This document shows, one piece after another, positions 7,883-20,891 of a DNA stretch of 64,000 nucleotides (position 1 is its first letter; each line of letters starts with the position of its first letter). The notes below the pieces were generated by a model. That model saw nothing but the letters and a program-made list of their open reading frames with translations, ran no database searches and had not been told where the DNA came from. This DNA comes from Verrucomicrobiia bacterium (GTDB lineage Bacteria > Verrucomicrobiota > Verrucomicrobiia > Limisphaerales > DSYF01). The stretch covers positions 1-64,000 of the forward strand of contig DASTWL010000039.1 in NCBI GenBank assembly GCA_035765895.1. The letters run 5' to 3'. A program made the position numbers and the translations under genes.

Positions 7883-8992
7883 TCAAGACGCCGCCTCGGG
7901 TTCAAGCGGCCGCAGCTCGGCCACTTCATCGCCGGCACAATGCCAGACGTGCAACGCGCCGGCTTCTCCACGTTTCAACGCGCGAAAAGCGTCGGGCAGT
8001 TGTCGTTTGGTGACGCGCTTTTCCGCGACTCCCGTCGCGTCGCAGCCCAGCACCACGACGTGCGGCTTGTAAATGCGCGGCCGGCCCAGGAAACGCACGG
8101 CACCAGCCGGCAGCGCGGGTGCGGGCCGGCGGTCCAACACCAGAAAACTGAGCGGCAGGCTGCGCAAATCCACCCCGGCCAGCTCGCCGAACCGCGCCCA
8201 GTTTCCATCCGTGAACACTTCGGGCGGCGGCGCCGCGAAGTGATGGCACCAATGGTTTTCGTTGCCCGGCGCCAGGATGCCGCATGGCACCGGATGCGTG
8301 CAGGGCGCGATGACGTTGAGCTTCCCGCGCAACCGTTCCCGCACGGCGATGAGCGTAAGACTGGCCTCGAAGGTGCCAGGTTCCACCCAGATCACGCTGG
8401 TGGCACCGGCCGCGAAATCTGCCAGCGCCTCGACTTGTGCCGGGGGGAGTTCGGTCAGCACGTGGCTGATGAGGAGGGTGGTGTTAGACTTCCCCTCACC
8501 CTGCCCTCTCCCCATCGGATGGGGAGAGGGTGGCGTCTTGCCGGGTGAGGGGTTTTCGTCCGGTTCATGGCCCGGGTGTGCATCCGTTCTCGGAGGCCGA
8601 TGCTCTCCCTGAACCGAGGCGTCGGTGATCACCTTCAAGCCCGCATATTTTCCCCTCGCCCGCCGTTCGGCAAAGCGCACCGCGAGCGGCGAACGATCCC
8701 ACAGTTGCAGTTCACCCACCGTTGCCATGCCGAAATGATCCAAAAACGCGCGGTGCGCGATGCCACTGCCGCAACCCCAGTCCAGCAACGTCCCGGGTGC
8801 GGGCGTCCAGCCGCGCCGCAGCAATTCGGCCAGCACGTAATCCCATTTCCAGCCGATGCGCTGGGCGAACGTGGCGTCATAACTGGCCAGATCCGATTCG
8901 CTGCGCCAGTAATCGGCGTGTCCAGCCGTGCCGTCGAGAAACGCCGCCCGCAAGCGTTCGAGCGCCTTCCAGTCAATGGCTTCCCAATTCAT
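7883..8992 (-). CDS. Rsm22-family ribosomal small-subunit methyltransferase-like protein
   Basis: 369 residues from ATG 8992 (the open frame extends to 9067, overlapping the upstream gene). It has the SAM-binding motif LLDWGCGSGIAHRAF near residue 70 and the Rsm22 hallmarks APCTHPVPCGIL and NHWCHHF, whose cysteines are metal/Fe-S ligands in that family. The C-terminus (GRPRIYKPHVVVLGCDATG) also fits. In mitochondria Rsm22 (METTL17) is needed for small-ribosomal-subunit assembly; the bacterial role is unclear. Residues ~124-169 are a Pro/Gly/His-rich insert encoded by a palindromic repeat (8492-8552) plus flanks, absent from the normal fold, placed between two core strands and in frame. The gene is 13 bp after another methyltransferase. 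Confidence 0.78.
   Translation of the reverse strand: MNWEAIDWKALERLRAAFLDGTAGHADYWRSESDLASYDATFAQRIGWKWDYVLAELLRRGWTPAPGTLLDWGCGSGIAHRAFLDHFGMATVGELQLWDRSPLAVRFAERRARGKYAGLKVITDASVQGEHRPPRTDAHPGHEPDENPSPGKTPPSPHPMGRGQGEGKSNTTLLISHVLTELPPAQVEALADFAAGATSVIWVEPGTFEASLTLIAVRERLRGKLNVIAPCTHPVPCGILAPGNENHWCHHFAAPPPEVFTDGNWARFGELAGVDLRSLPLSFLVLDRRPAPALPAGAVRFLGRPRIYKPHVVVLGCDATGVAEKRVTKRQLPDAFRALKRGEAGALHVWHCAGDEVAELRPLEPEAAS
8492..8552. repeat. Nested palindromic repeat inside the Rsm22-like gene
   Basis: Outer arms CCCCTCACCC (8492-8501) and GGGTGAGGGG (8543-8552) enclose an inner pair of 13-bp arms: CCCTCTCCCCATC (8504-8516) and GATGGGGAGAGGG (8518-8530). Both pairs are perfect. The element lies within a coding sequence and keeps the frame. 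A related copy sharing GATGGGGAGAGGGTGGC lies in dnaE at 18144-18160. Confidence 0.85.
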
Positions 8993-17062: not shown

Positions 17063-17092
17063 TTGCCCCGCGCCGCTCGCGGCAGGTAAGTT
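17063..17092 (+). promoter_or_regulatory. Putative dnaE promoter (leaderless or near-leaderless)
   Basis: TTGCCC (17063-17068), an 18-bp spacer and TAAGTT (17087-17092) end 7 nt before the ATG at 17100. GGCAGGTAAG overlapping the -10 could instead serve as a Shine-Dalgarno for a transcript started further up, so this call is moderate. Confidence 0.4.
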
Positions 17093-17099
17093 GCCGTGC

Positions 17100-20000
17100 A
17101 TGTCGCACGCGGACTTCGTTCATCTCCATGTCCACACCGAGTATTCGCTGCTGGACGGCGCCTGCCGGCTCGACCGGCTCATGGAGCGCGCCCACGAACT
17201 GAAGTTTTCCTCGCTCGCCTGCACCGACCACGGCGTGCTCTACGGCGCGATCGATTTCTACCGCGCCGCGCGGGAAAAGGGCATCAAGCCCATCATCGGC
17301 TGCGAAATGTATGTCGCGCCCGGCAGCCGGCTGGAAAAGAAAACCGGCAGCGGCGGCCGTGATGTTTATCATCATCTCGGTCTGCTTGCGAAGGACGAGA
17401 CCGGCTACAAAAACCTCATCCGCCTCGCCACGCTGGCGCACACGGAGGGCTATTACTACAAGCCGCGCATCGACAAGGAACTCCTCGCGCAATACGGCCG
17501 GGGCTTGGTTGCGCTGTCCGGTTGCCTCGCCAGCGAGATTCCCGACCTGATCATGAAGGATCAGTTCGACAAGGCGCGCGCGACCATTGACTGGTTCAAG
17601 CAAACGCTCGGCGCGGAGAATTTTTTCCTCGAACTCCAGAACCACGGCATCGCCGAGCAGGCCAAGGTCAACAAACACCTCATTCCGTGGGCGAAGGAGT
17701 TCGGCCTCAAGCTCGTCGCGACGAACGACGTGCACTATGTCGAAAAGGAACACTGGAAGGCGCACGACTGTCTCATCTGCATCGGCACACAGGCGCAATT
17801 GAGCGACACGAAGCGCATGCGTTACGCGCAGGAGCAATTTTACCTGCGCTCGGCCGAGGAGATGAAGGCGCGCTTTGCCGAAGTGCCCGAGGCAGTGAAG
17901 AACACACTCGAAGTCGCCGACATGTGCAACCTCGAGATCAAGTTCGGGGAGCTGCATTATCCGGTGTTCGAGCCGCCCGCCGGCAAAACACGCGATGGTT
18001 ACTTGCGCGAACTGCTCGCCGACGGTTTGGAGCGGCGCTACACGCTCAAGACGCACGTGGACGGAAAAGATTTCGTGGTGGACGGCATCACGGACCCAAA
18101 GCGCCTGCCGACGTATGTTGTTAGCCGGCCCCCCACCCCGTCCGATGGGGAGAGGGTGGCCGATGGGCCGGGTGCAGGGAAACCAGATGCGCCACTGCAC
18201 GCGCACCCTGAAGTCGCCGTGGCCATCAAGACTGTGCTCGACCGCCTGCAACTGGAAATGGGCGTGATCGAAAAGACCGGGTTCATCAGCTACTTCCTCA
18301 TCGTCGGTGATTTCGTGCGCAAGGGCCGTGACATGGGCGTGGCGTGCGTGGCGCGCGGTTCCGCCGCCGGCTCCATCGTCACCTATCTGCTCGACATCGC
18401 GAACGTGGACCCGATCCGCTACGCGTTGCTGTTCGAGCGCTTCCTGAATCCCGAACGTGTCAATCCGCCCGACATTGACATTGATTTCGCCGACGACCGG
18501 CGCGCGGACGTCATCGAATACGTGCGCCAGAAATACGGCCGCGATTCCGTCGCGCAGATCATCACGTTCGGCACGATGGGCGCGAAGTCCGTCATCCGCG
18601 ACGTTGGCCGCGTCATGGGCCTGACCTACGGCGAGTGTGACCGGCTGGCGAAGATGGTGCCCGCCGACTTGAAGATGACGCTCGAAAAGGCGCTCAAACA
18701 ATCGCCCGAATTCAAGCAGGCTTACGAAACCGAGGAAGTGACGCGCGAACTCATCGACACCGCGCTCGTGCTCGAAGACCTCGCACGCAACGCGGGCGTG
18801 CACGCGGCCGGCGTCGTGATCGGGCCCGAGCCGCTCATCAATTTGCTCCCGCTCAAGCAGGACGAGGATGGCACCATCGTCACCCAATACGCCATGGGCC
18901 CCGTCGGCGACCTCGGCCTGTTGAAGATGGATTTCCTCGGGCTGAAGACGCTTACGGTCATCCGCAACACCTGCGAGATGGTGAAGAAAACCAAGGGCGT
19001 CACGCTCGACATGGACACCTTGCCGCTCGACGACCAGAAGACCTACGACCTGCTGAACCGGGCGGAGACGCTGGGGGTGTTCCAGTTGGAATCCGGCGGC
19101 ATGCGCGACCTTTGCAAAAAGTTCCAGATCACCTCCGTCGAACACATCACCGCGCTCGTGGCGCTGTATCGGCCGGGCCCGATGGACCTCATTCCGGAAT
19201 TCATCAAGCGCCGCCACGGCGAGGTGAAGGTCGAATACGAGCATCCGTTGCTGGAAAGCATTTCCAAGGAGACCTATGGCATCCTGATTTATCAGGAGCA
19301 GGTGATGCAGGCAGCGCAGGTGCTGGCAGGCTACTCGCTCGGCGGCGCGGATTTGCTGCGGCGCGCTATGGGCAAGAAGAAGAAGGAGGAGATGGACAAG
19401 CAGCGCGGCACGTTCGTGAAGGGCTGCAAGGAGGTGAACAAGATTCCCGAGGCCAAGGCGAACCAGATCTTCGACCTGCTGGAAAAGTTTGCGGGTTACG
19501 GCTTCAACAAATCGCACGCCGCCGCGTATGCCATCGTTGCGTATCAAACCGCGTATCTGAAGGCGAACTACCCGGGCGAGTTCCTGAGCGCGATGATGAC
19601 GAACGACATGGGCGACACCGCGAAGCTCAGTCAATACATCGCCGAGGCGCGCACGATGGGCATCGAAGTGCTGCCGCCGGACGTGAACGAGAGCCAGATG
19701 CATTTCGGTCCGGCGCCGGGGAGCGCGGCTATCCCACCCACAGCACCTTCAACCGCAACCAAAGCATCGGGAAAATCCGAAAGTCACCCGACCGGCGGGG
19801 CTGCTGCGGCTGGGGACAGCCGCGCTCCGGGAATGGCCATTCGCTTCGGTCTCGTGGCTGTGAAGGGCATCGGTGAAATCGCCGTGGAATCCCTCATCAA
19901 GGCGCGCACGGAAGCGGGTCCGTTCAAGTCGCTCGGCGATTTGTGCGAACGCGTGGACGGACGCACGGTGAACCGCAAGGCGTTGGAAGCGCTCATCAAG

Positions 20001-20891
20001 TCCGGTGCGTGCGACTGCTTCGGCGAAACCCGCGCCACGCTGTTCGCGAGCATTGACATGGCGTTGACCCGCGCGGCAGGAATCATCGCCGACCGCCAAC
20101 GTGGACAGGCCTCGATGTTCGACATGCTGGAGGACGCCGGGAGCAAACCGGAACTCCAACTCATCAAGCTCGACGAATGGCCGCAGCACGAATTGCTCGC
20201 GGCAGAGAAGGAATTGCTCGGCTTCTACGTCACGGGCCATCCGCTGTCGCCGCTCGCACCGATTCTGGAAAAATATTCGCTGCATACGACCGTGGGACTC
20301 GCGGGCCTGCCGAACCGCTCGATGACGCGCATCGGCGGCATGGTGGGCGCGGTGCAAAGCGGCTTCTCGAAGAAAACCAACAAGCCCTACGCGCTGGTGA
20401 CGCTGGAGGATCTCGAGGGCTCCGTGCAGTTCCTCTGCATGAACGAGAACTACGACAAATACCGCGAGCTGCTCGTGCAGAACAAGGCGTTGCTCGTCAT
20501 CGGCGAGGTGAACACCACCGAGGACAAGCCGAAGATTTTCCCGCAGGAAATCCTGCCGTTGGAAGACGCGCCGAAGAAGTTCACCAAACAGGTCCACTTC
20601 CGGCTCCAGATGGCGCACCTAGCACCCGTGCACATGGAGCAACTCAAGGAACTGGTGGCCGCACATCCGGGCAAATGCCCGCTGTTGCTGTGCTTCATGC
20701 GCCCAACCGGCGGCGTCATCTTCGTGGATACGAACGAGCGTTACTCAGTGACGCCGTCGCTCGCTCTCCAGCAAGCCGCTGACGCCCTGCTCGGCGAGGA
20801 CACCTATTACGCCAAGGTGGACACCAGCCTGCCCGAACGGCAGCGCCGCGTGTGGGAGCGCAAGCCGGCCAACGGTGGCGAGAACGAATGA
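17100..20891 (+). CDS. dnaE: DNA polymerase III alpha subunit with two repeat-encoded insertions
   Basis: 1263 residues from ATG 17100. An in-frame TTG at 17091 is less likely. The PHP domain begins at once (FVHLHVHTEYSLLDG, CTDHGVLYGAIDFYR); the polymerase core has ARGSAAGSIVTYLLDI and the catalytic aspartates in NPPDIDIDFADDRR; GYGFNKSHAAAYA and the helix-hairpin-helix region follow; and the C-terminal OB fold is RSMTRIGGMVGAVQSGFSKKTNKPYALVTLEDLEGSVQFL. It is the replicative polymerase. Two low-complexity inserts interrupt conserved sequence: residues ~339-378 (Pro/Gly-rich, before LQLEMGVIEKTGFISYFLIV) and ~872-912 (Ala/Ser/Thr-rich, before MAIRFGLVAVKGIG). Both coincide with palindromic DNA repeats found elsewhere in the window, and the reading frame is kept. 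Confidence 0.97.
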   Translation: MSHADFVHLHVHTEYSLLDGACRLDRLMERAHELKFSSLACTDHGVLYGAIDFYRAAREKGIKPIIGCEMYVAPGSRLEKKTGSGGRDVYHHLGLLAKDETGYKNLIRLATLAHTEGYYYKPRIDKELLAQYGRGLVALSGCLASEIPDLIMKDQFDKARATIDWFKQTLGAENFFLELQNHGIAEQAKVNKHLIPWAKEFGLKLVATNDVHYVEKEHWKAHDCLICIGTQAQLSDTKRMRYAQEQFYLRSAEEMKARFAEVPEAVKNTLEVADMCNLEIKFGELHYPVFEPPAGKTRDGYLRELLADGLERRYTLKTHVDGKDFVVDGITDPKRLPTYVVSRPPTPSDGERVADGPGAGKPDAPLHAHPEVAVAIKTVLDRLQLEMGVIEKTGFISYFLIVGDFVRKGRDMGVACVARGSAAGSIVTYLLDIANVDPIRYALLFERFLNPERVNPPDIDIDFADDRRADVIEYVRQKYGRDSVAQIITFGTMGAKSVIRDVGRVMGLTYGECDRLAKMVPADLKMTLEKALKQSPEFKQAYETEEVTRELIDTALVLEDLARNAGVHAAGVVIGPEPLINLLPLKQDEDGTIVTQYAMGPVGDLGLLKMDFLGLKTLTVIRNTCEMVKKTKGVTLDMDTLPLDDQKTYDLLNRAETLGVFQLESGGMRDLCKKFQITSVEHITALVALYRPGPMDLIPEFIKRRHGEVKVEYEHPLLESISKETYGILIYQEQVMQAAQVLAGYSLGGADLLRRAMGKKKKEEMDKQRGTFVKGCKEVNKIPEAKANQIFDLLEKFAGYGFNKSHAAAYAIVAYQTAYLKANYPGEFLSAMMTNDMGDTAKLSQYIAEARTMGIEVLPPDVNESQMHFGPAPGSAAIPPTAPSTATKASGKSESHPTGGAAAAGDSRAPGMAIRFGLVAVKGIGEIAVESLIKARTEAGPFKSLGDLCERVDGRTVNRKALEALIKSGACDCFGETRATLFASIDMALTRAAGIIADRQRGQASMFDMLEDAGSKPELQLIKLDEWPQHELLAAEKELLGFYVTGHPLSPLAPILEKYSLHTTVGLAGLPNRSMTRIGGMVGAVQSGFSKKTNKPYALVTLEDLEGSVQFLCMNENYDKYRELLVQNKALLVIGEVNTTEDKPKIFPQEILPLEDAPKKFTKQVHFRLQMAHLAPVHMEQLKELVAAHPGKCPLLLCFMRPTGGVIFVDTNERYSVTPSLALQQAADALLGEDTYYAKVDTSLPERQRRVWERKPANGGENE
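18130..18180. repeat. Diverged copy of the 8.5-kb palindromic repeat, inside dnaE
   Basis: Bases 18144-18160 (GATGGGGAGAGGGTGGC) are identical to 8518-8534 in the Rsm22-like gene, and GCCGGGTG follows at similar distance in both. The left arm is degraded (CCCCCCACCCCGTCC). The repeat lies in frame in dnaE and encodes the Pro/Gly-rich insert. Confidence 0.75.
19720..19828. repeat. 109-bp inverted-repeat element inside dnaE
   Basis: Perfect 11-bp terminal inverted repeats GGAGCGCGGCT (19720-19730) and AGCCGCGCTCC (19818-19828) bound the insert, which encodes dnaE residues ~874-910. The right end (19802-19829) also contains a subterminal palindrome (GCGGCTGGGGACAGCCGC) and matches 21213-21239 downstream of dnaE with two differences. 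Confidence 0.8.

Follow-up and report, generated by a model that had tools for sequence, protein, structure and literature searches.

Triplex-type repeats occur in hundreds of bacterial genomes. The G/C-rich intrastrand triplex motif (TM), earlier described as PIT and BoxC, has 23 copies in Escherichia coli, reported to be always intergenic and unlinked to mobile elements, and the study that describes them saw no sign of mobility (Holder et al., 2015, PMC4666352). Palindromic repeats within genes are known from two other systems. The rickettsial palindromic elements (RPEs; Ogata et al., reviewed in PMC10969869) are ~150 bp long, are found in Rickettsia and encode a conserved peptide. Intragenic GTAG/CGTC REPs are richest in Opitutus terrae and Rickettsia conorii, where they lie in uvrA and a DNA ligase of O. 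terrae, among others, and in DnaE of R. conorii too; they have been explained as neutral loops or linkers, with the inactivating ones purged (PMC3733652). That repeats enter genes is already established by the RPEs and the intragenic REPs, Verrucomicrobia included. We found no report of triplex-type motifs inside genes in the open-access literature.

Results

The window, which is the whole stretch of 64,000 nt of verrucomicrobial DNA analyzed here, carries at 7883..8992 on the minus strand an open reading frame of 369 aa (frame open to 9067) for an Rsm22/METTL17-like methyltransferase. The product matches the Pfam Rsm22 profile (PF09243, 47 bits vs a cut-off of 23, E=2.9e-12), has a METTL17-like fold and has retained the residues, those of the Cys motif among them, that do not vary across 30 orthologues. 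The AlphaFold model has a mean pLDDT of 88, and a fold search of the PDB with this model returned chains of mitochondrial small-subunit assembly intermediates at the top (8css_7 and others), as well as entry 9hny, which names Mettl17 in its title; a sequence search of the PDB with the protein gave no match. The assemblies of this genome and its relatives are draft and metagenome-like.

Inside this gene lies a TM/PIT-like nested palindromic element of 61 bp (8492..8552, minus strand, translated NPSPGKTPPSPHPMGRGQGEG), in which the coding strand is also the triplex-motif strand. On the plus strand, the outer arms CCCCTCACCC (8492..8501) and GGGTGAGGGG (8543..8552) are perfect over 10 nt and pair at 12 of 13 positions when extended, the 13-nt inner arms CCCTCTCCCCATC (8504..8516) and GATGGGGAGAGGG (8518..8530) are 100% complementary to each other, and a small second hairpin, GGC-GTCTT-GCC (8532..8542), has arms that covary across copies. 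The original prediction of a nested palindrome with perfect 10-bp outer and 13-bp inner arms in coding sequence was thus confirmed exactly. The inner palindrome pattern has an expectation of 0.00 in shuffles of the window, and the single-strand folding of the element (z = -7.7) was equaled in none of 200 shuffles.

Read along the coding strand, the element is CCCCTCACCC-GGCAAGACGCC-A-CCCTCTCCCC-ATCCGAT-GGGGAGAGGG-CA-GGGTGAGGGG, and one strand of it holds the three blocks of the TM core, CCCTCTCCC / GGGAGAGGG / GGGTGAGGG, separated by short loops. Its last three blocks, CCCTCTCCCC-ATCCGAT-GGGGAGAGGG-CA-GGGTGAGGGG on the minus strand, fit Table 1 of PMC4666352. As judged from its sequence, the element is an enlarged TM/PIT/BoxC intrastrand triplex motif. 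Across 28 distinct full-length copies the covariation score was 0.099, compared with 0.037 +/- 0.006 in shuffles and reached by 0 of 500 of them; column 12/20 in this set holds UA 10 times, CG 9 times and GC 6 times. Since the arm pairs covary, it is the structure of the element that is conserved and not the sequence alone, and the extra 5′ arm together with the small hairpin would allow the whole element to form a three-way junction. This predicted three-way-junction hairpin is conserved among the copies. The only known RNA family that came up was RAGATH-10, below threshold (18.6 bits vs a gathering cut-off of 41.2), and it was rejected. In dispersed copies across many families the ends of the element are discrete at CCCC...GGGG, and the 10-bp outer arms count as terminal inverted repeats of the kind expected in a MITE.

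The whole protein insert, as delimited by orthologue alignment and AlphaFold, covers residues ~124-170 (8483..8623, minus strand) and is a composite of two palindromic repeats. The loop has 47 residues here vs ~10 in most of the 29 orthologues compared, all from the same order, with a range of roughly 7–15 in nearly all of them. Model confidence falls to pLDDT <50 at residues 126-156 and 163-165, and strands 120-123 and 171-176 flank the insert. It is predicted to be disordered and lies, as originally proposed, in a loop between two strands of the core. An insert of ~45 residues derived from the palindrome had also been proposed, but only ~20 residues are supplied by the 61-bp palindrome and the other 27 come mostly from an adjoining imperfect GGTTCA palindrome, CGGTTCAGGG-N36-CCATGAACCG (8561..8616, minus strand), of the form GGTTCAGGG...CCATGAACC. 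This second palindrome is present once in its own genome: BLAST of that genome with 8553-8635 gave a single copy and no high-copy repeat, and the strict pattern GGTTCATGG..CATGAACC had 0 matches there. In two relatives, G101 and G072, GGTTCATGG...CCATGAACC repeats flank copies of the element in the same arrangement as at 8561-8616, which makes the Rsm22 insert look as if two repeat units had been joined in it.

Of the 29 orthologues, 27 are without a comparable insert, and the remaining two, from the sister species G001 and from G054, carry inserts of their own in the same loop with the frame kept. The G054 loop contains the same element family in a different phase, while that of G001 contains a GTAG-tagged repeat dimer, GTAGGGCGGGCAG...CGCCCTAC (L032:1858-1995), with 12 matches in the G001 genome. 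Because one differs in phase and the other is another repeat, both are independent insertions. A sequence similar to the G001 dimer was observed in a kinase activation loop of G036 (L090).

About 16 full-length places of the element were found in the genome that contains the window, and 61 of 116 genomes of the order match it at E <= 1e-6. Eight of the copies in this genome are central in a larger palindromic repeat with shared arms and two are in plain intergenic DNA. Five full copies are in genes, namely Rsm22, valS, a sensor histidine kinase, pheS and the activation loop of a Ser/Thr kinase. The larger repeat around the eight central copies (L003, L006-L008, L010-L013) has arms like AGAGCGGTTTAAA..GTCGTAGCCGTC / GACGGCTACAGTATTTATGAAACTGCTATA, and the arms of a different palindrome, ACCACGGATGGACACGGATGAACACAGATG / ATCCGTGTTCATCCGTGTCCATTCGTGGTT, enclose one further copy (L016:1440-1630). 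The PheS insert has 28 residues vs 4 in E. coli-type chains; known structures align on both sides of it, as they do on both sides of the ValS insert, and both inserts are absent from most relatives. Within the window, the gene for DNA polymerase III alpha (dnaE, 17091..20891, plus strand) contains a degenerate in-frame second copy (18129..18179, plus strand, translated RPPTPSDGERVADGPGAG); the loop that holds it is filled by different, unrelated inserts in other orthologues. The ValS loop likewise has different inserts in different genomes. Since the same loops hold differing inserts, permissive loops gather whichever repeat is active. The claim that a dispersed repeat had entered the Rsm22-like gene in frame is well supported by the open frame, the ~16 genomic copies and the lack of the insert in most orthologues, and no broken frame was met in relatives. 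The genome-wide count also bore out copies in genes in frame; the locus is not an isolated case, with at least five other genes affected, dnaE included.

Genes with copies, named from their Pfam domains, include mnmE, valS, recQ, mutY, trpE, uvrB, gatB, ispG, purL and those for a DUF3418 protein, an aldehyde dehydrogenase, a U32 peptidase and protein kinases; the copies in mnmE, trpE, gatB, uvrB, recQ, mutY, ispG and purL are in relatives. The pheS genes of G000 and G040 (L077, L078), from two families, have the insert at the same site and in the same phase, and the nearest kin of both are without it, which could reflect either gene transfer or common descent from an ancient insertion with losses. 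The trpE genes of two genomes from different families (L163 and L194) share one rare hairpin variant of the element at an identical position. In addition, in-frame stretches in the proteins of L004, L005, L015 and L026 (GSARVSRADSGVSPE..RGTRALP, PTPDPSKEGN, GQASSLSG and GSAGVPPAEPGVAPG) resemble translated dispersed repeats, which suggests several more gene-invading repeat families.

To assess frame keeping, we trained our own coding model on the window plus all loci and applied it to 16 copies from the genome itself and 100 from relatives. A coding signal on both flanks, on the same strand and in the same frame and with no stop, was found for 33 of these 116 copies. With five further in-frame copies and 0 out of frame in G028, all 38 of 38 copies with coding on both sides keep the frame and have no internal stop. 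With insertion lengths random modulo 3 and no selection, the chance of 33 of 34 copies in frame would be ~4e-15, a figure that is indicative because not all copies are independent (two are in trpE and two in paralogous kinases). A candidate frame shift, L173, was rejected as intergenic; the gene upstream has its stop ahead of the element, and another gene begins beyond it. All six phases of the element are used in genes, giving unrelated peptides, and the two kinases with the element in the activation loop (L015 and L175) have it in different phases. The canonical 62-mer contains TGA in one phase per strand. The 11 genic copies in these phases have lengths of 60, 61, 63 or 66 and so avoid the TGA; the Rsm22 copy, a 61-bp variant, is one of them.

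No target-site duplication of >=4 bp was found at any of 73 non-redundant sites, and neither a GTAG nor a CGTC tag occurs at the element ends in the flanks of 73 non-redundant copies. No transposase could be linked to the element. Y1 transposases are present in most genomes, but G033, with at least eight copies, had no match to the Y1 family PF01797, and the loci around the Y1 genes of the genome that contains the window yielded no element core. Mobilization by the Y1 transposases of that genome is thus unsupported.

Discussion

We consider it very probable that the feature in the Rsm22-like gene is a dispersed, non-autonomous mobile repeat of the TM/PIT/BoxC kind, which is tolerated in frame in permissive loops. 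As a small mobile element that is non-autonomous, the ~62-bp repeat would spread through genomes of the order, possibly by way of a single-stranded hairpin on which a trans-acting enzyme acts, and its landing sites would include intergenic DNA, other repeats and genes. Among the genic copies, those that keep the frame, introduce no stop and fall in a permissive surface loop would survive, with selection removing the rest. Since only in-frame, stop-free loop insertions survive under this scheme, the Rsm22-like protein would carry a disordered loop as a result. The inserts are most likely near-neutral.

Several other explanations need to be weighed against a tolerated mobile repeat. The Rsm22-like gene could be a decaying pseudogene, in which case the insert would not matter to any working protein, and the draft, metagenome-like assembly gives this reading some room. 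We regard it as very improbable, given an open frame along the whole gene, conservation of the invariant residues, codon signal on both sides of the insert and the same kind of insert in the essential genes pheS, valS and dnaE. An ancestral 47-residue loop that the other orthologues have since lost is hardly credible: the loops of G001 and G054 are long too, yet the former holds a different sequence and the latter the element in another phase, and the loop is short in nearly all the others. Exaptation, in which selection keeps the insert for the peptide it encodes, as a linker or a regulatory loop (e.g., in a kinase activation loop), would agree with the recurrence of disordered peptides rich in proline, serine and glycine, with the two kinases that carry the element in the activation loop and with the common pheS insert of G000 and G040. 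The use of all six phases, which yields unrelated peptides, speaks against it; unrelated repeats also sit in the same loops, most orthologues are without an insert and the dnaE copy is decaying. On balance, we think it improbable.

The rival that concerns the mechanism is that no transposase is involved and the motif is copied at stalled forks, through template switching or repair where the sequence forms a triplex or hairpin. The lack of a target-site duplication and of a consistent Y1 link, and the copies nested centrally in other palindromes, all agree with such a process, and TM motifs in E. coli have been associated with local instability (PMC4666352). On the other hand, discrete CCCC...GGGG ends across many families and identical copies at unrelated sites look like the mobility of a unit, and we judge template switching to be less likely than not, though a serious contender. 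As for a tolerated mobile repeat, its strongest form would be that TM/PIT is a true mobile element with a three-way junction and an unrecognized mobilizing enzyme and is a general source of new disordered loops in essential proteins of this order; we put this forward only tentatively, as a possibility that falls short of even chances.

It is important to consider what these copies would mean for triplex motifs, for which mobility had not been indicated. That essential genes have both filled and empty sites, that the same loops were entered repeatedly and independently and that the frame is strictly kept is evidence for movement as a unit, and the same evidence argues that triplex motifs can become parts of proteins. 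The mobilizer, the function of the triplex or hairpin and the cost of the inserted loops all become testable. The repeat also accounts for odd insertions that otherwise disturb the annotation and structure prediction of proteins from this group.

Among known systems, the element resembles TM/PIT/BoxC in its core, CCCTCTCCC(C)-loop-GGGGAGAGGG-2-3 nt-GGGGTGAGGGG on one strand, and in its many near-identical dispersed copies. It differs in lying in genes at least 38 times, where the E. coli copies are reported to be always intergenic, and in the additional 5′ CCCCTCACCC arm and second small hairpin, neither of which is present in the E. coli pair at 164.5 kb. With MITEs it shares a small size, inverted arms, dispersal and non-autonomy, but no target-site duplication and no parent IS were found for it. 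The rickettsial precedent that had been invoked for this locus applies in part. Like RPEs, these are palindromic repeats in frame in unrelated housekeeping genes, which survive as protein inserts that orthologues are without. By its sequence the element goes with TM/PIT/BoxC, and on the published description RPEs are set apart from an element that is 62 bp long, G+C-rich, read in six phases and found in another phylum, and the use of all six phases rules out a rickettsial-type element with a single peptide. The GTAG/CGTC REPs are likewise short palindromes in verrucomicrobial genes with the same proposed explanation, whereas the element here is without an end tag and no RAYT association was found. 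By analogy, the best reading is that these are mobile REP-like elements tolerated in protein loops, as the RPEs are in Rickettsia and the GTAG-REPs in Opitutus.
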